A stretch of DNA of 49,679 bases, from contig JAIPHA010000009.1 of NCBI GenBank assembly GCA_021735445.1, positions 5,001 through 54,679 on the forward strand, in the 5' to 3' direction. Positions within the stretch are counted from its first letter, which is position 1. The number at the start of each line of letters is the position of its first letter. This document shows positions 1,169-41,980 of the stretch, piece by piece. The translations under genes were made by a program, and so were the position numbers. The stretch comes from Candidatus Omnitrophota bacterium (GTDB lineage: Bacteria > Omnitrophota > Gorgyraeia > Duberdicusellales > 4484-171). The notes under the pieces are model-generated. The model saw only the letters and a list, made by a program, of their open reading frames with translations. It made no database searches and was not told the DNA's origin.

Positions 1169-1243
1169 TATAATGATATAGGTAGCAATTATGTTTGAAA
1201 TATTAAAGAATCAATGCGAAATGCATTGTAGTGGGGTGTAAAA

Positions 1244-2662
1244 ATGAACAATCTGAACAAAGACACAAAAGAGATTACCGAAGTTATTTTAAAAGCTAAA
1301 GAAAAAGCTTATGCTGAATTAGATACTGGAGCAGAATCTGAATTTGTGAGAAATGTTAAATGGCCGGTAGATTGTGTGGTTGGGCCAGGCCTGGAAGGAG
1401 CCATCGCCTGCGAGAGTAAAGTTGGTTATGTAAATGGTTCAAAAGGCTGGTTGGTTTACCGTGGTTATAATATTTTTGATCTTTGTGCCTACTCTAGCTT
1501 TGAAGAAGTCTCTTATCTTCTTTTATATGGAAAATTGCCTACAGAGAATCAACTTAAGAAATTTAAAGAAAAATTAAAAGGCTATCGTAATATTCCAAAA
1601 ACTATTCGGCTTTTGTCCAGTTTTCCTGTCCAAGACATGAATGCAATGGGAGCTGTTCGTTTGGGAACAAACCTTATGCGCCAGGAGTGTACATTTGTCG
1701 ATAAAAAAGAATATAAACCAGATGTAAAAACTGCCATAAGTGCTGATGAAGATTCTATCCCAATGGAAACCCGGCCGATGGGGGAAAGAAAAGCGATTTA
1801 TTCTTTAAAACAAGCCGAAGGAATCACAAGGCCTAGCGGTTTAAGCAAGGATTTACATATGCCTGTAGGCTTTGAACCAGCTCTTCATCTTATTTCGGGT
1901 ATCCCGACAATCGCCGGAGCTGTGGCGCGCTTGCGAGTGGGAGAATTACCGCTTAATCCTGATCCGGAGTTAAGCCATGCCGGTAATCTAATTTATATGA
2001 TAACCGGACGCAAACCCACTCCTGTTGAAGAAAGAATTATGGATATATCCCTTATTCTCCATGCTGATCATGGCATGAATGCATCGACTTTTGCCACCAT
2101 GGTGGTAGCTTCTACTCTATCGGATCTTTATTTCGCAGTTGGTTCTGGCATTGCTGCACTTAACGGTTCTTTGCATGGAGGAGCTAATGAACGAGTTGTT
2201 AAAATGCTTTCTGAGATTGGTGACTCTAAAAATGTTAAAAAGTGGTATAAGAAAAAAACTGCAAAGAAGGAAAAGATCAGTGGGTTTGGCCACAGGGTTT
2301 ACAAGGCCTACGACCCAAGAGCAAGGGTTTTAGGTCCCTTAGCCCATTTTTTAGTTAAATCTGAAAGCGATAAAAAGATTGCAGGTTTATTTAAAGTGGC
2401 GCAAGAATTAGAAAAAGAGGTTGTTTCTACGCTAGGAGAAAAAAAGAAAGTTTTTCCAAATGTTGATTTTTATTCCGGCATTGTCTATTCATGCCTTGAT
2501 ATACCAACTGAACTTTTTACTCCAATTTTTGCGGTTAGCCGGGTTTCTGGCTGGACTGCAAGAGTGTTAGAATATCTCAAAAACAATCGTATTTTTCGGC
2601 CCAGAGCCGTTTACTCCGGGCCTTTAGAAGAGAAATATGTCCCGCTTAATAAGCGTAAATAA
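1244..2662 (+). CDS. gltA: Citrate synthase
   Basis: 472 aa; LILHADHGMNASTFATMVVASTLSD, GSLHGGANERVVKML and GFGHRVYKAYDPRA motifs. Confidence 0.93.
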   Translation: MNNLNKDTKEITEVILKAKEKAYAELDTGAESEFVRNVKWPVDCVVGPGLEGAIACESKVGYVNGSKGWLVYRGYNIFDLCAYSSFEEVSYLLLYGKLPTENQLKKFKEKLKGYRNIPKTIRLLSSFPVQDMNAMGAVRLGTNLMRQECTFVDKKEYKPDVKTAISADEDSIPMETRPMGERKAIYSLKQAEGITRPSGLSKDLHMPVGFEPALHLISGIPTIAGAVARLRVGELPLNPDPELSHAGNLIYMITGRKPTPVEERIMDISLILHADHGMNASTFATMVVASTLSDLYFAVGSGIAALNGSLHGGANERVVKMLSEIGDSKNVKKWYKKKTAKKEKISGFGHRVYKAYDPRARVLGPLAHFLVKSESDKKIAGLFKVAQELEKEVVSTLGEKKKVFPNVDFYSGIVYSCLDIPTELFTPIFAVSRVSGWTARVLEYLKNNRIFRPRAVYSGPLEEKYVPLNKRK

Positions 2663-30135: not shown

Positions 30136-30496
30136 GGGGGTGAATGGACTCGACCTAAAAGGTGATGTGAAAGGGAGCATGCCGCGGATGTAAGCTTCCT
30201 GCGTTAGTGGCGCTTGCAAAAAAATAAAGGCAAAACCTTTTACTACAGCTCCTGAATACGCGTTAAGCTAAACAGGAGATTCTTATATTCCTTGCCTCAG
30301 GGGATATAAGGGTTCGGTTTGAGGCTATAGAGTAAGTTTTTGCCTTTTGGGCTTGCTCTTAAAACATAAAAAGGCTGCTTTCTGGTAAATCCTGCCTCTT
30401 GGAGTTACCAGGGAAAAGATAAAGAAGAGGCTAAGCATGTAGGGTCCTTTTGCTGAAATTTTAGGGACGCGGGTTCGATTCCCGCCACCTCCACCA
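30136..30496 (+). ncRNA. ssrA: Transfer-messenger RNA (tmRNA)
   Basis: 5' GGGGGTGAATGGACTCGACC; 3' GGTTCGATTCCCGCCACCTCCACCA; internal tag ORF GCAAAACCT...TACGCGTTAAGCTAA (30230-30271). Confidence 0.96.
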
Positions 30497-31265: not shown

Positions 31266-31437
31266 TTGACCAACTATGATTTTAGAGCTATATTAAACCT
31301 ACAATTAGTCATTAGTCCCGAGTTGGAAGGATTAAATCCCGGACTATCCCGGCAAACAGCCGGGACCAGCCTAAACAAAAAAGTGGTGGCTGGTAAACAA
31401 GTAAAACCTTCGCTGGCAACGGCGAGGGATTTTTTAA
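31266..31437 (+). promoter_or_regulatory. Structured leader element copy A (promoter + hairpins), upstream of RhuM-Doc
   Basis: TTGACC-N17-TATATT, then GTCC...GGAC, a TCCCGGC-AAACA-GCCGGGA hairpin, and AAAACCTTCGCTGGCAACGGCGAGGGATTTTTT. Confidence 0.7.
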
Positions 31438-31457
31438 TTTTAGGAGGTTCATGTTTT

Positions 31458-32444
31458 ATGAAAAATAAAAAAATAAAAAAAGGTAAAGTAATTGTATATA
31501 GAAATAAGGTAGAAGTTCGTTTAGAGAAGGAAACTGTATGGCTTACTCTTAATCAAATTTCATATTTGTTTAAAAGAGACAAATCTGTAATATCACGTCA
31601 CTTGCGAAATATTTTCAAAGAAAAAGAATTAACTAAAAAATCAACTGTTGCAAAATTTGCAACAGTTCAAAAAGAAGGGGAGCGTCAAATAGTTCGTGAT
31701 ATTGAGCACTACAATTTAGACATGATTATTTCTGTAGGCTACAGAGTTAATTCTAAACGCGGCACTCAATTCCGGATCTGGGCTACTAATGTTTTGCGTA
31801 AGCATTTAGTTAACGGCTACACCTTAAACCAACAATGTCTTGTCAAAGATGCGACCAAATACAAAGAATTGCAAAAAGCTATAGAACTGATAAGCAATGT
31901 TGAATCTCTTTCAGATTTATCTCCAGATGCTAAAGGTATTATCCGGGTTATCTCTGATTATCGGCGAGCTTTAGATATTTTAGATGATTTTGATCATCAA
32001 AATCTTTCAACTCCTAAAGGGACTAAAAAAACTAAATATAAACTTACCTATAAAAAAGCACGAAAAATAATTGATACTCTAAGGAAAAAATTTAAAGATT
32101 CGGATTTAGTTGGCCAAGAAAAAGATCAAAGTTTTAAGAGTTCAATCGGAGCAATATATCAAACCTTCGGCAAAAAAGAGCTATATCCTACTCTTGAAGA
32201 AAAAGCCGCTTATCTTTTGTATTTTGTAGTCAAAAATCATAGCTTTGTTGACGGAAATAAACGGATAGCCGCAGCTTTGTTTATCTGCTTTTTAGATGAG
32301 AATGGCTTTTTATATAAGAAAGATGGAACCAGAACTATCGATGAAAATGCTTTAGTAGGCTTAACCCTGATGATCGCGTCCAGCAATCCTAAGGAAAAGG
32401 ACAAAATGATTAGAGTTACCCTAAACCTATTGCATAATAAATGA
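31458..32444 (+). CDS. RhuM-family / Doc(Fic)-domain fusion protein
   Basis: RhuM-like VWLTLNQISYLFKRDKSVISRHLRNIF...GYRVNSKRGTQFRIWATNVLRKHL; Doc motif NHSFVDGNKRIAAALF. ORF track start 31266 is inside the leader; ATG 31458 follows AGGAGG. Confidence 0.88.
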   Translation: MKNKKIKKGKVIVYRNKVEVRLEKETVWLTLNQISYLFKRDKSVISRHLRNIFKEKELTKKSTVAKFATVQKEGERQIVRDIEHYNLDMIISVGYRVNSKRGTQFRIWATNVLRKHLVNGYTLNQQCLVKDATKYKELQKAIELISNVESLSDLSPDAKGIIRVISDYRRALDILDDFDHQNLSTPKGTKKTKYKLTYKKARKIIDTLRKKFKDSDLVGQEKDQSFKSSIGAIYQTFGKKELYPTLEEKAAYLLYFVVKNHSFVDGNKRIAAALFICFLDENGFLYKKDGTRTIDENALVGLTLMIASSNPKEKDKMIRVTLNLLHNK

Positions 32445-32447
32445 AGA

Positions 32448-32495
32448 CACCTCCGAGGTGCAGATAAAAGAATTACTCTAATCACCTCGGAGGTG
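32448..32495. repeat. CACCTCCGAGGTG hairpin repeat, copy 1
   Basis: CACCTCCGAGGTG (32448-32460) / CACCTCGGAGGTG (32483-32495), 13-bp inverted arms. Confidence 0.9.
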
Positions 32496-32562
32496 GAGAA
32501 ACAGCTAATTAGCCTTAGGGTAACTTAAAATATTATAAACAAATTAAACAGGAGGTAGTTTC

Positions 32563-33291
32563 ATGTCCAAGACGTTAGTTGCAATTTTAATTACGGTAAT
32601 CTTGGCAGTATCTTTTCTGGCTGCGGCAAAGATTTTTTCTGATACTGCAATAAGCATCAAAAACAAGGGGTATGTGAAAGTTAAAGGGTTTGCCAAGCAA
32701 GAAATTAAATCAGATCTAGGCATATTTAAGGCCAAGCTTGCAACTGAAGGCGCGGACTTAAAACTCTGTTATAAAAACCTTAAAGAAGATAAAGATAAAA
32801 CTAATGATTTCTTAAAAAACTTTGGAGTTAAAGAAGCCGAAATCGAAATGTTTCCGGTTCAAGTAGTTGAAGAATACAAGATAAACGAAAGAGGCCACGA
32901 GACAGATGAATTTGTTAAGTATATCCTAAAGCAGAAGTTTAAAATTGAATTATCTGATGTTAAAAAAATTGCTGCTCTCTCAGAAAAGATCTCCGAATTA
33001 CTAGATAAAGGGGTAAAAATTTCTGCCTATGAGCCTAAATATGTTTATACTAATCTTGATGACCTAAAAGTAGAGATGATTGGCAAAGCTACCGCCAATG
33101 CCAAAGAAAGAGCCAAAATAATAGCTAAACAAGGCAGTTTTCGCTTAGGCCCGATTGCATCGGTAAGAGTAGGAGTGTTTCAAATAACTCCAGCTCATTC
33201 TACCAGAGTATCTGGTTATGGGATAAATGATACCTCAAGCATTGATAAAGAAATCAAAAGTGTAGTTGAGATCGAGTATTTTGTAAAATAA
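32563..33291 (+). CDS. SIMPL-domain (DUF541) protein
   Basis: N-terminal TM helix; VKVKGFAKQEIKSDLGIFKAKLATEGADL; KATANAKERAKIIAKQ. Confidence 0.85.
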   Translation: MSKTLVAILITVILAVSFLAAAKIFSDTAISIKNKGYVKVKGFAKQEIKSDLGIFKAKLATEGADLKLCYKNLKEDKDKTNDFLKNFGVKEAEIEMFPVQVVEEYKINERGHETDEFVKYILKQKFKIELSDVKKIAALSEKISELLDKGVKISAYEPKYVYTNLDDLKVEMIGKATANAKERAKIIAKQGSFRLGPIASVRVGVFQITPAHSTRVSGYGINDTSSIDKEIKSVVEIEYFVK

Positions 33292-33325
33292 TGATACCAG
33301 ATCCGCAAAACAAATTTTTGCCAGA

Positions 33326-33375
33326 CACCTCCGAGGTGGCCGCTGGCAGCTACATTAACGGACTCCTCGGAGGTG
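33326..33375. repeat. CACCTCCGAGGTG hairpin repeat, copy 2
   Basis: CACCTCCGAGGTG (33326-33338) / CTCCTCGGAGGTG (33363-33375); shares flanks GGCCGCTGGC and GGCGAAGCA with copy 3. Confidence 0.9.
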
Positions 33376-33398
33376 GCGAAGCAAGGTTAATTTCCCCC

Positions 33399-33520
33399 TT
33401 GACCAATCCTAATTATAGAGTTATATTAAACCTACAATTAGTTATTGTCCCGAGTTAGAAGGGGTAAATCCCGGACATTAAAAAAGCAAAACCTTCGCTG
33501 GCAACGGCGAGGGATTTTTT
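33399..33520 (+). promoter_or_regulatory. Structured leader element copy B (promoter + hairpins)
   Basis: TTGACC-N17-TATATT; GTCCCGAGTTAGAAGGGGTAAATCCCGGAC; AAAACCTTCGCTGGCAACGGCGAGGGATTTTTT. Confidence 0.7.
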
Positions 33521-33615
33521 ATTTTTTACTCAATAATAAAAAGATAAGAAAAATTAGGTTTATGTTGACACAATTATTTAGGGAGATATAATTAATTTAC
33601 TCACCGTTATTTGTT

Positions 33616-35196
33616 ATGAAATTATTAATTAATCGTTATATTGTTAGTCTTCTTTCCTTTTCATTGCTTATTTTCAACTTTCCTTTAATATCATTTGCTA
33701 AAACAAGAAAAAAACAAGTTAGGTTTCGGGGCGGCATAAAGGCGGAATGGAATTTTTATGCTCAAAACTATACTGAAGCAATTAATTTCTTTGAAACAAT
33801 AAAGCAGAAGGGAGATAAGAATTATGCTTTGGTTAACAATCAATTAGGTTCAATATATTTAACAACAAAAAATTATAAAAAAGCCTTAGATTCTTTTTTA
33901 GAAGCGTATTATTTAATGAATGATGTGGATGCATTTAAAAACTTAGAGTCTAAAGCTATTTCTTTAATTGGAGCGGAAGCAGAAAAAGCCTATAAAGGGG
34001 ATCCCTATGAAAAGTTATATAATTCTCTTTATACTGGGTTGTTGCTTTATAAAGAAGGTGAAAATGATAATGCATTAGCAGCATTTAAAAATGGAATATT
34101 ATGTGATTCAGATGTAAAAGCTGATCTATATCAAAGCGATGCTTATATTTTATATCTAATGGCTTCAAGACTAGCTTTAAAGATGGGCAAAAAAGATTTG
34201 AGTAAAAAATATTTTAAAAAAGCAAGTAATGCATTTTATTTAACTAGGCCAATTAATCAAAGATTAGCGATGAAAAAGCAAGCACAATTGTTTTTGTTGA
34301 AAGATAAAAAGAAAGAAATTGACAAGCTAAAGAATCCAGAAAAGTATTCCAAGAAAAAGAAGAAAAAAAAGGAAGGCTTTATCATCCAAGGGAAGGAAAT
34401 GGAGGATTCCAAAGAAAAAACTTATCAAGAAGCTCCGTTAAGCCAGAGGACCTTAGACAAAATTGAAAATATAAAAAATGAAATAAAAAAAGTTGATAAG
34501 AATATAGACAAATTGGAATCTAAGCTTAATAAGAATAAAAAAGATATAGATATAAATTTCCTGAAAAAATTCATTGATTTAAAAAATAATGTTTTACTAT
34601 GTATTGAATTTGGAAATTCTCCTTTAAAATATGCTGTTGGAAAATATGGTGAGTTGGCAGTTTTTACTATTAAGCCTTCAGGAATCAGAAATATTGAGAT
34701 AACCGTAAATAATCGAAAAATTTTTCAAAGTGTAAGCCCTTTAAGCAGTGACGTATACTTTCAGGCAATTACCAGGGGCGGTAGAGAAATGGATTATATC
34801 CTAAAAGATCAAGCTCAATTTAAGCAAACTACCGCAGAGATGTCTATGGCTATGAGCAGGGTTTCTCAAAATGTGCTCAATCAAGCTAATCAAATGGCTA
34901 TGCAAAATCCGTACTATAATCCTTCCGGTGCTTATGCTGCTGCAGGTGTGATTGCCTTAATAGGGCTCTGCTCTGCTTTAGCAAGTGCAGCTTCTAATCC
35001 TGCAGCTGATGTCAGGCATTGGAGCTTTTTGCCAGGTAATCTTGCAATTTTGCCCATTACGTTAAATCCAGGAAATCATTCTCTTAATGTTAAAATAGAA
35101 TCTAGAACTGGAGACATATTGAAGGATGAAGATGTTAAACTTGAAATAAAAGAAAATAAGGATAACATAATATTTCATCGAATATTTATTAACTAG
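33616..35196 (+). CDS. TPR-containing envelope protein, COG3014-like
   Basis: Signal peptide, TPR-like N-terminal half, C-terminal DVRHWSFLPGNLAILPITLNPGNHSLNVKIE; adjacent to LpoB/YcfL-like genes. Confidence 0.65.
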   Translation: MKLLINRYIVSLLSFSLLIFNFPLISFAKTRKKQVRFRGGIKAEWNFYAQNYTEAINFFETIKQKGDKNYALVNNQLGSIYLTTKNYKKALDSFLEAYYLMNDVDAFKNLESKAISLIGAEAEKAYKGDPYEKLYNSLYTGLLLYKEGENDNALAAFKNGILCDSDVKADLYQSDAYILYLMASRLALKMGKKDLSKKYFKKASNAFYLTRPINQRLAMKKQAQLFLLKDKKKEIDKLKNPEKYSKKKKKKKEGFIIQGKEMEDSKEKTYQEAPLSQRTLDKIENIKNEIKKVDKNIDKLESKLNKNKKDIDINFLKKFIDLKNNVLLCIEFGNSPLKYAVGKYGELAVFTIKPSGIRNIEITVNNRKIFQSVSPLSSDVYFQAITRGGREMDYILKDQAQFKQTTAEMSMAMSRVSQNVLNQANQMAMQNPYYNPSGAYAAAGVIALIGLCSALASAASNPAADVRHWSFLPGNLAILPITLNPGNHSLNVKIESRTGDILKDEDVKLEIKENKDNIIFHRIFIN

Positions 35197-35210
35197 AGAG
35201 TAAGAAAGAA

Positions 35211-35780
35211 ATGAAAATATTTTTTAATAACATACTTGTTTTTATTTTTACATGTATAATTTTATCAGGTTGTGCAAATCCACGCTTACTTTTGCGAAAG
35301 AATCAAGAAGAATTAGAGTTAAAGCCAAATCAAGGCGGAGTATTATTTTCTTTGCACATACATGGGCATAGAAGCTTTTGGCCTCAAGGTGTTGTTGTAA
35401 GGGAAATAAATCAATATGAAACCTATCAACAAAATAAGGTTGATATAATTCCATTATCTGGATATGGTGGTAAGCTTTATAGAGGAATGTATTTATTTAA
35501 TATGCGCTTACCACGCGGCACATATCAACTTTCTCATTTTACAGGAATGTTAGGAGGTGTTTTTGGCCAAAAAAGTATATTACCCTGTAATAAAGTATTT
35601 GATATTTATCCTCAAGAAATTGCTTATATCGGAAGAGTTAATGAACGATTATATGTAAATAATAGAAAAATAAATTATGATATTAAAATTGAAGATTATT
35701 ATAAAAGCGATTTAGAAAAATTTAGACAATATTATCCAATACTTAATCAAATAGACATAAAAAAAGATTTAATCTATTAA
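35211..35780 (+). CDS. Putative lipoprotein
   Basis: Lipobox IILSGC; RBS upstream. Confidence 0.7.
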   Translation: MKIFFNNILVFIFTCIILSGCANPRLLLRKNQEELELKPNQGGVLFSLHIHGHRSFWPQGVVVREINQYETYQQNKVDIIPLSGYGGKLYRGMYLFNMRLPRGTYQLSHFTGMLGGVFGQKSILPCNKVFDIYPQEIAYIGRVNERLYVNNRKINYDIKIEDYYKSDLEKFRQYYPILNQIDIKKDLIY

Positions 35781-35796
35781 AAAAGGAAGGTTTTAT

Positions 35797-36390
35797 ATGA
35801 AAAAAAATGTGTTTTTAGGAATTTTATTGTTATTTCTTTGTGCGTGCGCAAGCGTAGGAACATCTTCTTATCAAAATACAATATTGCCCGATGAAGATGA
35901 CCGGCTAGGAGGAACTGGTATTGAATCAACAGACATAAGAACTGTTGCTAGAAAAATGGCTGTGTCTATTCTGGAGGTTCCAGAAATATCTAATGCACAG
36001 GGAATTCCAAGAATAGCATTATTGCCGGTTAAAAATTCTACTAGGTTTGTGATAAATAAAGATATTTTTACAAAGAAAATTAGAATAGAGCTCAATAAAA
36101 ATGCGACAGGAAAAATGAGATTTCTTGCTAGAAAACGTATCAAAGATATTTTAAAAGAACGGGAGAGTAAAAGAGAAGGGCTATTTACAAGCAGCAAAGA
36201 AGCTCAGCTTTTAGGGGTAGATTTCTTTTTAACCGGAGAACTCGCCGGTTTAAGTAAAGCAAGTAGTGGGCACAGATCGGATTATATTATAATGTCTTTT
36301 CAGCTCATAGATGCAGAAACAAGTGATATAATTTGGGAAGATGCTTATGAAATAAAAAGAGTTGGTATTACCGGAACTGTATACCAATAA
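35797..36390 (+). CDS. LpoB-like penicillin-binding protein activator lipoprotein
   Basis: Lipobox LFLCAC; STDIRTVARKMAVSILEVPEI; RIALLPVKNSTRFVINKDIFTKKIRIELNKN; VDFFLTGELAGLSKAS. Confidence 0.82.
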   Translation: MKKNVFLGILLLFLCACASVGTSSYQNTILPDEDDRLGGTGIESTDIRTVARKMAVSILEVPEISNAQGIPRIALLPVKNSTRFVINKDIFTKKIRIELNKNATGKMRFLARKRIKDILKERESKREGLFTSSKEAQLLGVDFFLTGELAGLSKASSGHRSDYIIMSFQLIDAETSDIIWEDAYEIKRVGITGTVYQ

Positions 36391-36406
36391 ATGTTAAGGA
36401 GGAAAG

Positions 36407-36817
36407 ATGTCTTTTGCTAAATATTTAATTTGCTTTTTAAGTGTATTGTTGATTGTTGGTTGTGCTTCAGGACCACGTAAAGGGATAGGAGTGGTTAGGA
36501 AATATGAATTATATGAAGATAAAGAAACTTTAGTTATGTTAGATGATACGGTTCGCAGACGACTATACGTTGTTGATCAATCTGCTTCATGGACCGATGA
36601 TGGGCGTTTGACAGCAAAAGCAAGATTCTTAAATAAAAAGGATGAAACTCTTAGGGTACAAATCCAGACAATTTTTAAAGATGAAGAAGGCTATAAAGTT
36701 GATGAAACTAATTGGGAGTTAATCTTAATTCCCAAAAATTCTTATCATTATTATGAAGCAAAATCTTTAAATGATAAAGCTAGCAAATACACTATAAGAT
36801 GTAAGCTAGCACAATAA
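36407..36817 (+). CDS. YcfL-like lipoprotein (DUF1425)
   Basis: Lipobox LIVGC; YVVDQSASWTDDGRLTAKARFLNKKDETLRVQIQTIFKDEEGY; next to the LpoB-like gene as in enterobacteria. Confidence 0.7.
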   Translation: MSFAKYLICFLSVLLIVGCASGPRKGIGVVRKYELYEDKETLVMLDDTVRRRLYVVDQSASWTDDGRLTAKARFLNKKDETLRVQIQTIFKDEEGYKVDETNWELILIPKNSYHYYEAKSLNDKASKYTIRCKLAQ

Positions 36818-36828
36818 AGGTAGGTTTT

Positions 36829-38487
36829 ATGATGAAAAAAAAATATCTTATTTTTATAATTTTATTAATTTTTTGTTTTTCTGTAAAAATTAATATATAT
36901 GCTTCCGATGATAGGCATAAAGATGTTTCAAGTCCAACTATTCCGTCTCACTCAAAAAATGAATCTAAACAGCAGATGCAAAAAACGTTTGTTTATGAAC
37001 AAAAAAGCATTCAGAATGTAAAAAAGAAGAATTTAAAAATTAAAGTAGCTGTTTCTCGGTTTGAAGAAGATTTAAAAATTGAAGGGAGTATGTTTAACCC
37101 ACAAGAAGAAACAGAAGATGTAGATGAAACTATCGAGATTAAGGATTCTAAAGTAAAAATCAAAATAGATGAAGATCAAGCAAAGGAAATTACTAAAAGT
37201 CAAATGCTTACAGGTCTTTTTATTAGCGCGTTAAACCAAACAGATCGATTTATTGCAGTTGAAAGAAAAAATATTAATGAATTAATCAGAGAAATAAATT
37301 TTCAGAATTCTAAATGGACAGCTAATGAAGCTGCTAATAGTCTTGGAAATATATATGGTATCCAATATATTATTACTGGTGATTTATTAACGAATAAAGA
37401 AGATGAGAGATTCGGCCCCAAAAAGTATACTTTAGCAGCAAGGATGTATGATATTAATACTGGTGAAATTATATCAACTTCAACTACAAATACATCTTAC
37501 CTAAAAAATGCTGTAGAGTCAGCTGTACAAAAATTAGCAAATAAAATTCAAACAAAGGCTTGGGCTTGCAGGGTGGTAGGCGTAAACAAAGAAGGTATAT
37601 ATATTAATGCTGGTTTTGGAGATGAAATTGAGAAGGGTGATGTTTTTTTGGTGTATCGGATAAAAGGAAAAGTAATTGACCCTGAAACCAAAAAAGTGTT
37701 AGGTGTAAAAAGAGATAATATAGGGTATTTAGAAGTAGAAGAAGTCTTGGGTAAAAACTTGTCTATTGCACAACTTCAGGAAAACAATAAAGATATATCA
37801 ATAGGCGATATTGTATCGGCCGAAAGGATCAAAGATGAAGCATCTTCTGAGTTTGAATTATGGAGCAATATATATGATGGATCTCAATCAATAGAAGAAA
37901 AAGGCTTTGAAAAATATTCATTGTCTACCAAGCAGTTGTCTCCTGAATTTATAATGGGAACATATGGGCAATCTGTGGTAAAGATTCAAACTGGATTTTC
38001 GTTAGGTAGTGGTTTTATAGTAAATCCAGAGGGTTATGTTGTTACTAATTTTCATGTTATTGATAATGCAAAAACGATAAATATAAAAATGATTGAAAAA
38101 AAACAATACTTTAACAGTATTAAAGTTATAAAAACTGATCCAGTGCGGGATATTGCATTACTAAAAATAAATAGTTCAGAAACTTTTCCTGCTGTCAGAT
38201 TGGGCGATTCTGATTCCATCAAGATTGGTGAAGAAGTAGTTGCTATAGGGAACCCAGAAGGATTTGAAAATACAATAGCTGATGGGTTAGTTAGCGGGTT
38301 GAGGAAGCATAATGGGGTAAAGTTAATACAAACCAGTGTTCCTGTTAGTCATGGAAGTAGTGGAGGCCCTTTATTAAATAAAAGAGGAGAAGTGATTGGT
38401 ATCGTAGCAGCTGGATTGGACAAGAAAGGTAATATTAATTTTGCAGTTCCTATTAATTACATTAAAAGAGAGCTTTTAGAATATTAA
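36829..38487 (+). CDS. CsgG-like N-terminal domain fused to HtrA/S1C trypsin-like serine protease
   Basis: N-term KVAVSRFEED...SQMLTGLFISALNQTDRFIAVERKNINELIREINFQ...GIQYIITGDLL; C-term GSGFIVNPEGYVVTNFHVID, DPVRDIALLKI, QTSVPVSHGSSGGPLLNKRGEVIGI. Confidence 0.85.
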   Translation: MMKKKYLIFIILLIFCFSVKINIYASDDRHKDVSSPTIPSHSKNESKQQMQKTFVYEQKSIQNVKKKNLKIKVAVSRFEEDLKIEGSMFNPQEETEDVDETIEIKDSKVKIKIDEDQAKEITKSQMLTGLFISALNQTDRFIAVERKNINELIREINFQNSKWTANEAANSLGNIYGIQYIITGDLLTNKEDERFGPKKYTLAARMYDINTGEIISTSTTNTSYLKNAVESAVQKLANKIQTKAWACRVVGVNKEGIYINAGFGDEIEKGDVFLVYRIKGKVIDPETKKVLGVKRDNIGYLEVEEVLGKNLSIAQLQENNKDISIGDIVSAERIKDEASSEFELWSNIYDGSQSIEEKGFEKYSLSTKQLSPEFIMGTYGQSVVKIQTGFSLGSGFIVNPEGYVVTNFHVIDNAKTINIKMIEKKQYFNSIKVIKTDPVRDIALLKINSSETFPAVRLGDSDSIKIGEEVVAIGNPEGFENTIADGLVSGLRKHNGVKLIQTSVPVSHGSSGGPLLNKRGEVIGIVAAGLDKKGNINFAVPINYIKRELLEY

Positions 38488-38545
38488 TATTTTCAAAATT
38501 ATTTTACTTATTATCATTTAAAAAAGTAGAACATAATCAGTAACA

Positions 38546-38625
38546 GTCCCGTGTTAGAAGGATTAAATCCTGGACTATAATCAAGCAAAACCTTCGCTGG
38601 CAACGGCGAGGGATTTTTAATTTTA
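38546..38625 (+). promoter_or_regulatory. Structured leader element copy C
   Basis: GTCCCGTGTTAGAAGGATTAAATCCTGGACT then AAGCAAAACCTTCGCTGGCAACGGCGAGGGATTTTTAATTTT directly upstream of a GGGAG RBS; the TTGACC/TATATT part is missing. Confidence 0.7.
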
Positions 38626-38636
38626 GGGAGCAAAAA

Positions 38637-39572
38637 ATGTCAACTCCAATATACCAATCAGATCATACAAAAATAGACAAAAGAGAAAAGACAAGTGTTT
38701 TGTTTCTAGGAGATGAAGGGAAATCAATTAGATGCCTAAATTGCAAAACTATAATAGAAGGAAGTGATAAAGTTAAGTGGATTAATAAGAAACTAAGAAT
38801 ATTTAAATGCCCGGCTTGTAATAAAAGTTTGGGCATTAAAAAAAATATTAAAGCTATAGATAAGCGATGGTTTTTAGTAGATCTGATGCCCGATGATGCT
38901 ATAACGTGTGATATATGTGGTGATACTATATATTGGGGGGATGATGCTCCTTGGCAAGATAGCCTAAGGGGCTTAAGAAATATGAAAGAAGGTAAAACCA
39001 TACATTTTCCTTGTTGTGGTGGCTCTAAGCTTTCGCTTAAGAGGAAGAACAATAGTTTATTATTGGATAGTGTTTATAGCGAAGATGAAAATTTAGTTTA
39101 CCTTGAAGAGAAACCAATTACGAAGTTATTGTTCAAAATAAGCTTTAAAATTACTACTCGAATTCCTTTAGACATTAAAGATACTATAGAATATATAAAG
39201 AACTGCCTTGAAATGCGGGGTTTTTCTTATCAGGAGGTATTTAGTTCCTGGAGAGACCCCATTAGGTACCAAATTAAGAAAATAACTTTTCGCACTACAC
39301 TTGATTGGCTAAATACAGATTCAGCAAAAGAAGCGATCCCAAAAAGATATTTCCGGATTGCTCTAGAAAGTTGTTTCCGTATTGATAATAGTAGGAGTAA
39401 TGATTTAGGTAGCCCGATGAGATCATATCATGAGGCGATAAGGGAAGACTTATTATGGGGGCTGGAGCAAAGTTTTTATCAAGTTTATGATATGTCGATT
39501 AAGAGTTTTTCAATAGTAGATAGTTTTATCTCTGGTTTCCAGACAAAAAGTAAATATAGTGGAATAACTTAA
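38637..39572 (+). CDS. Hypothetical multi-zinc-ribbon protein
   Basis: CLNCKTIIEGSDKVKWINKKLRIFKCPAC, CDICGDTIYWGDDAPW, FPCCGG. Confidence 0.7.
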   Translation: MSTPIYQSDHTKIDKREKTSVLFLGDEGKSIRCLNCKTIIEGSDKVKWINKKLRIFKCPACNKSLGIKKNIKAIDKRWFLVDLMPDDAITCDICGDTIYWGDDAPWQDSLRGLRNMKEGKTIHFPCCGGSKLSLKRKNNSLLLDSVYSEDENLVYLEEKPITKLLFKISFKITTRIPLDIKDTIEYIKNCLEMRGFSYQEVFSSWRDPIRYQIKKITFRTTLDWLNTDSAKEAIPKRYFRIALESCFRIDNSRSNDLGSPMRSYHEAIREDLLWGLEQSFYQVYDMSIKSFSIVDSFISGFQTKSKYSGIT

Positions 39573-41760: not shown

Positions 41761-41980
41761 TTCGCAAAACGAATTTTTTGCCGGACCGTCAAAAACTCCG
41801 GCGTAGTTTTTGCCTGGTAGCTTCGGCCGAAAATCCGTCGCTTCGCGCCGGAACCATGCTTTTTGGCCTCAGAACCTCCGCAAAAATTGTTTTGCTCCTC
41901 ATTTGCGAAAAAAGCCACCTCCGAGGTGGCCGCTGGCTACTACATCGCCGGCCTCCTCGGAGGTGGCGAAGCACGGTTAA
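41757..41980. repeat. Composite inverted-repeat element including CACCTCC hairpin copy 3 (41915-41966)
   Basis: TTCGCAAA/TTTGCGAA arms, CAAAAACT/AGTTTTTG hairpin, CACCTCCGAGGTG/CTCCTCGGAGGTG; flanks shared with copy 2. Confidence 0.8.

Follow-up and report, generated by a model that had tools for sequence, protein, structure and literature searches.

In the preQ1 class I (preQ1-I) riboswitch, the A-rich loop L3 contacts the minor groove of P1 (PMC11625349). Here, a leader RNA of comparable layout is described, which is present in three copies (A, B and C) in a 49,679-nt stretch of the genome of a Candidatus Omnitrophota bacterium (contig JAIPHA010000009.1, positions 5,001 to 54,679), hereafter called the window. 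Like preQ1-I, the element could form a small H-type pseudoknot with an A-rich L3 along P1 and a terminator or Shine-Dalgarno (SD) platform behind it (PMC11625349). Unlike in preQ1-I, the 3' strand of the candidate pseudoknot is also the 5' arm of the terminator, so that its formation would turn genes ON; this is opposite to the preQ1-I switch of B. subtilis, where termination is favoured by the pseudoknot. Moreover, the sequence of the element is unrelated and its P1 is longer. A search of Rfam 15 (4227 families) gave no family at the gathering threshold, with only chance matches below it at permissive E-values; the initial annotation had recognised no named riboswitch class. As the genes downstream are also other than queuosine genes, membership in preQ1-I was rejected.

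Three further systems are comparable. With orphan riboswitch candidates and the structured leaders of Rfam the element shares a conserved structured leader RNA with an intrinsic terminator and without a known ligand, but it differs from the catalogued candidates in matching no Rfam family. LoaP/RfaH leader elements are likewise short, precede diverse accessory operons and overcome termination, whereas the Omnitrophota RNA brings along a terminator of its own, which is predicted to exclude the alternative fold. The order of promoter, pseudoknot-like RNA, short terminator and gene is also that of type III toxin-antitoxin RNA (toxI). In contrast to toxI, the genes downstream belong to many unrelated families and a tandem toxI repeat set is missing; since no toxin family recurs among these diverse genes, this assignment was rejected.

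A conserved structured leader RNA

An exact 32-nt sequence, AAAACCTTCGCTGGCAACGGCGAGGGATTTTT, which comprises a terminator hairpin and U-tract, was detected at three sites of the window (31403, 33488 and 38587, all on the + strand). As 0 occurrences are expected and none was found in 100 shuffles, the three-copy repeat of the initial annotation is real. By repeat search and alignment, a GTCCCGNGTTRGAAGGNNTAAATCCNGGAC block was found upstream of AAAACCTTCGCTGGCAACGGCGAGGGATTTTT in the window copies, and copies A and B have a common promoter, TTGACC-N17-TATATT, as well as ATTAAACCTACAATTAGT. The repeat search of the window recovered the block common to all three copies, the promoter block found only in A and B, and the block of the upstream hairpin. 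For copy C no recognisable promoter of its own was seen, so that the annotated promoter holds for A and B only. The source genome (1.17 Mb, 37 contigs, 84% complete) contains no copies beyond these three. Alignment and folds identified the first hairpin of the window copies (P1) as GUCC...GGAC, while the second has a 9-bp stem, a GCAA loop and a U-tract (-15.7 kcal/mol, z -5.0) and is terminator-like, as had been proposed.

Approximately 130 distinct elements were collected, of which alignment A6 holds 114 sequences; some counts were made on 96 elements, and the significance of covariation was judged on A6 by shuffles and slid registers. In A6, P1 and the terminator pair in 94.8% of cells compared to 85.5% after shuffling (0 of 500 shuffles), 161 cells are altered on both sides compared to 62, and the covariation score is 0.330 compared to 0.166. 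When the partner was slid by one column, pairing fell to ~53%. In a count that demanded four pairs, P1 was present in the versions GTCC/GGAC (104), GTGG/CCAC (14), GTCG/CGAC (4) and GTGC/GCAC (1); without this demand and in a fixed register, 459 of 544 P1 cells pair, with 412 after shuffling (maximum 433). P1 pairs switch jointly, CG being replaced by GC in 13 and 14 rows of A6. The interior of the terminator is represented by 89 distinct sequences in 96 elements, which are always complementary and in every case fold better than shuffles (mean z -3.6). The element is therefore a conserved structured RNA with compensatory changes in both P1 and the terminator, the covariation that the initial annotation had put forward as a check. 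Near-invariant across homologues are the loop GUU-N-GAAGG and the linker UUAAAAAAGUAAAA, and the 5' arm of the terminator starts with a near-invariant CCUUC despite its freely varying interior. Hairpin inserts in homologues fall at one tolerated site of the linker. In 90/96 elements, the fifth position of P1 (A6 columns 21 and 44) holds C.C or U.U, a coupled pair that is not Watson-Crick.

A covariance model built from the element (R1) was used for genome searches, as the annotation had also suggested, and many relatives were found. The element is present in 23/37 genomes of the source family, in 156/384 sampled genomes of the class (E<=1e-3; 1-9 copies each) and in 137/384 genomes of a phylum sample (E<=1e-4), nine of which lie outside the class. 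Relatives of the same family hold the whole element with a different gene downstream each time; the promoter comes first, then ACAATTAG close to where transcription should start, GTCCYGAGTT.GAAGG..TAAATCCYGGAC, the A-rich linker and the terminator, with SD and ATG behind. When 85,462 species were scanned with a strict pattern, 26 stretches were obtained, all titled Omnitrophota/Omnitrophica or merely "bacterium"; a pattern scan of IMG/VR and searches of phages and plasmids gave no match. In the literature library searched, no paper was found that links Omnitrophica to riboswitches or Omnitrophota to noncoding RNA. The RNA family, which has more than 100 examples, appears not to have been described before and is restricted to Omnitrophota as far as these scans show. 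Four near-identical copies with different genes downstream lie on one 9.7-kb contig (L031 at 167, 1146 and 7629; L032 at 1606), which is a cassette-like array.

A candidate pseudoknot competing with the terminator

The loop GAAGG of P1 is complementary to the CCUUC of the terminator, a feature absent from the initial annotation. Five pairs are possible in 75/96 elements and at least four in 93/96, and 95.4% of the respective A6 cells pair, which points to a likely switching mechanism. At the terminator columns 69/102, U is kept in 114/114 rows though its partner is G in 38; that the U of column 69 is never C would fit a base that has to pair with a loop A as well. Column 68 behaves like column 69, but the U there was set by the search pattern. 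The candidate pseudoknot would have an L1 of 1 nt, an L2 of 3-4 nt and an A-rich L3 of ~15 nt, which in this model is the geometry of an H-type pseudoknot. Because both use one CCUUC, pseudoknot and terminator should be mutually exclusive. The isolated pseudoknot helix was calculated at ~-4 kcal/mol and the terminator at ~-14.5, and with a 5-bp helix this weak opposed to a strong terminator, an effector that holds the pseudoknot during synthesis of the terminator is likely needed.

In the proposed mechanism, each copy would head a transcription unit as its 5' leader and serve as a transcription attenuator. RNA polymerase would start ~10-15 nt upstream of P1, and P1 (GUCCYG/CYGGAC type, GUU-extended) would fold first and present the GAAGG-containing loop. 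Once CCUUC has emerged past the A-rich linker, it could pair with this loop to give an H-type pseudoknot, with the linker along P1, which would withhold CCUUC from the terminator and allow transcription of the gene. Should the pseudoknot come apart, CCUUC would instead pair with the GRAGG arm made later, and the resulting terminator would end transcription. An effector, either a small molecule or a protein, would stabilise the pseudoknot, which would make the element an ON switch. That the pseudoknot forms, that it turns genes ON and that there is an effector is what we infer. As an RNA family, the element is real, conserved and cis-acting, and it very probably attenuates transcription by means of a pseudoknot antiterminator; that the reading holds as a whole, from a promoter-driven leader to a pseudoknot that blocks the terminator, we consider probable.

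Several points weigh against this reading. The search and the alignment were seeded on CCTT, and the invariance of CCUU is therefore partly by construction. The GAAGG/CCUUC helix is nearly devoid of covariation, since both strands hardly vary, and its conservation could instead reflect recognition by a protein. In some loops, e.g. in L153, one or two of its pairs are broken. Finally, the gene behind copy B has a perfect promoter of its own, and copy B could act differently from the other copies.

Placement, rival explanations and downstream genes

A TTGA-N16/18-TANNNT promoter lies upstream of 89/133 elements, compared to 3 expected from shuffles, and the end of its -10 box is mostly 16-23 nt before P1. 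The first long downstream open reading frame (ORF) is on the same strand in 112/116 elements and on the opposite strand in 4. A gene starts at most 60 nt from the U-tract in 54/116 elements, and a separate promoter intervenes in only 4. Eleven elements directly follow another one, and 9 of these 11 are without a promoter, as expected for tandem attenuators that share one leader. The gene-facing orientation, the start codon often right after the U-tract and the promoterless tandems argue for a cis-acting attenuator and not a mobile repeat. Conserved structure, leader placement, promoter and terminator are established computationally, and with covariation, placement and many relatives, the attenuator- or riboswitch-type layout that had been annotated ahead of differing gene modules is supported; nothing in favour of a thermosensor, which had been named beside it, was found. 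Attenuation by a leader peptide was rejected, as an ATG precedes the end of P1 in only 16/126 leaders, which makes a conserved leader ORF unlikely. Class C group II introns favour terminators as sites. A group II intron directly follows the U-tract in two cases (intron RNA, L014 35-205; maturase gene, L236 108-1454), which also fits terminators.

The compact unit of promoter, RNA and terminator could alternatively be a stand-alone gene for a trans-acting small RNA of ~90 nt, which lies upstream of genes by chance, and the separate perfect promoter after copy B would agree with this. Such a gene would account neither for the 112 co-directional genes, with 54 starts close to the U-tract and an intervening promoter in 4, nor for the second tandem copies without promoters, and we regard it as very unlikely. 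Near-identical clusters with different genes, such as the four copies in 9.7 kb of L031, and the accessory nature of the partner genes would also suit a MITE/REP-type mobile or recombinational repeat, or a cassette recombination site, without regulatory role. The compensatory changes, the constant distance to the promoter, the strict orientation, a copy number of 1-9 per genome and the phylum-wide age all speak against it, as does the lack of matches in IMG/VR, phages and plasmids. For a REP/MITE repeat, dispersed copies lacking a gene-orientation bias are expected, and with 112 genes on the same strand and 4 on the opposite one it was rejected; the random orientation or lack of covariation by which the initial annotation would have recognised a simple repeat was not what we found. 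A mobile or recombinational origin in this sense is highly improbable.

In another explanation, the hairpin, linker and CCUUC are read by an antitermination protein, either a LoaP/RfaH-like NusG paralogue or another RNA-binding protein, and the complementarity is secondary. The loop and linker are conserved in sequence and not in structure alone, as a protein-read leader would predict. Operon-specific antiterminators serve accessory operons in other bacteria, which also favours this explanation. On the other hand, the complementary GAAGG/CCUUC pair would be superfluous in such a model, and a single NusG was found in the source genome and in most relatives with copies, although the assemblies are incomplete (84% for the source); a LoaP/RfaH-dependent element is therefore not supported by the source genome or by most of these relatives. 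A protein-read leader is thus unlikely, if still to be reckoned with, and we retain the attenuator with pseudoknot antiterminator.

To characterize the downstream genes, the first genes after 92 elements were compared with 92 random genes of the same phylum by Pfam counts. Control maxima were derived from a 25-row listing, and PADLOC counts were set aside as its broad models, which report families rather than members, also matched control genes. SIMPL/DUF541 was found 13 times, compared to at most 1 in the control (p 0.001), and is the most frequent partner in relatives. DNA methyltransferases (PF00145, PF01555 and PF02384) were found up to 14 times compared to at most 4 (p 0.02), sums which assume that no protein matches two families. 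DUF3857/transglutaminase was found 7 times compared to at most 1, an enrichment that by itself does not reach significance (p 0.06). Other families downstream are RadC, ORF6N, RhuM, Fic and alpha-2-macroglobulin domains, and single cases are Cas6, Cas3, a PD-(D/E)XK nuclease, YhcG, DUF3800 and radical-SAM/HhH proteins. The partner genes are thus many and unrelated, with accessory functions in DNA modification, CRISPR and the envelope. A second group of elements, drawn largely from other classes of the phylum, showed the same pattern, with two Dcm, HsdM, two N4/N6 methylases, RhuM and SIMPL. In the reverse test, 11/26 SIMPL genes, picked from class genomes regardless of the element, lie on the same strand and at most ~1.2 kb downstream of an element, while well under one is expected given ~two elements per 1.5 Mb. 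One random control stretch (L174) itself contains an element at 1230-1314 (-), with a DNA methylase gene ~30 nt further on.

It is plausible that the element is a small-molecule riboswitch. The joint and more specific proposal is a new, Omnitrophota-private riboswitch class which would sense a signalling molecule, e.g. an alarmone or cyclic nucleotide, and whose pseudoknot antiterminator would switch on a dispersed accessory/defence regulon of restriction-modification, CRISPR-Cas, RadC, RhuM/ORF6N and SIMPL genes; this we put forward as doubtful. A phylum-wide leader RNA ahead of restriction-modification, CRISPR and other accessory genes would suggest a shared signal that controls them at the RNA level. 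Covariation in the family is strong and its switching architecture is clear, while the phylum is almost without cultures. The pseudoknot-versus-terminator model and its effector are directly testable in vitro by standard transcription and probing assays.

The window copies and their surroundings

All features of the three copies and their genes given below lie on the + strand. The promoter of copy A, TTGACC-N17-TATATT, is located at 31266..31294 and is followed by the leader RNA with insert at 31301..31435 (model R2, 44.4 bits, E 1.6e-7). Its P1 hairpin (31315..31344) is formed by GTCC (31315-31318) and GGAC (31341-31344) and contains the loop GAAGG (31326-31330). The 47-nt insert (31347..31393) lies between P1 and the linker, at the same place as the inserts in homologues, and contains the two additional hairpins that had been annotated, which were read from the sequence (31347-31365, TCCCGGC/GCCGGGA; 31366-31393, CCAGCC/GGCTGG). 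In the terminator (31407..31435), the 5' arm CCTTC (31407-31411) is complementary to the loop GAAGG. The first gene after copy A (31458..32444) encodes a RhuM-Fic protein (Pfam Virulence_RhuM and Fic), and the second (32563..33291) is a SIMPL/DUF541 gene.

Copy B has the same TTGACC-N17-TATATT promoter (33399..33427) and a leader RNA of canonical form (33434..33520; R2, 94.7 bits, E 6.2e-19). It consists of P1 (33447..33476; GTCC 33447-33450, GGAC 33473-33476, loop GAAGG 33458-33462), the A-rich linker ATTAAAAAAGCAAAA (33477..33491), which is the candidate pseudoknot loop L3 and near-invariant among homologues, and the terminator (33492..33520; CCTTC 33492-33496), whose U-tract extends up to 33520. 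Between this terminator and the first gene, which encodes a tetratricopeptide repeat (TPR) protein (33616..35196) and is followed by LpoB-like and CsgG/trypsin-like genes, lies the perfect promoter TTGACA-N16-TATAAT (33565..33592; 12/12 sigma-70). Because this separate promoter intervenes, the copy B gene may depend on more than the leader.

The leader RNA of copy C, for which no own promoter was seen, lies at 38533..38619 (R2, 84.1 bits, E 1.6e-16), with P1 at 38546..38575 (GTCC 38546-38549, GGAC 38572-38575, loop GAAGG 38557-38561) and the terminator at 38591..38618 (CCTTC 38591-38595). SD and ATG (38637) follow directly, as had been annotated. The first gene (38637..39572) has no Pfam match, and DUF429 and TPR genes are next.

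The accessory cluster with the three copies is preceded, at a distance of less than 1 kb, by a transfer-messenger RNA (tmRNA) gene (30136-30496), which could be the sign of a hot spot for integration. On both sides of the SIMPL gene of the window lies a second palindromic repeat, CACCTCCGAGGTG (32449-32503 and 33327-33380), which is found again at 41913-41931; 4/5 of its exact copies in the genome are on the window contig.

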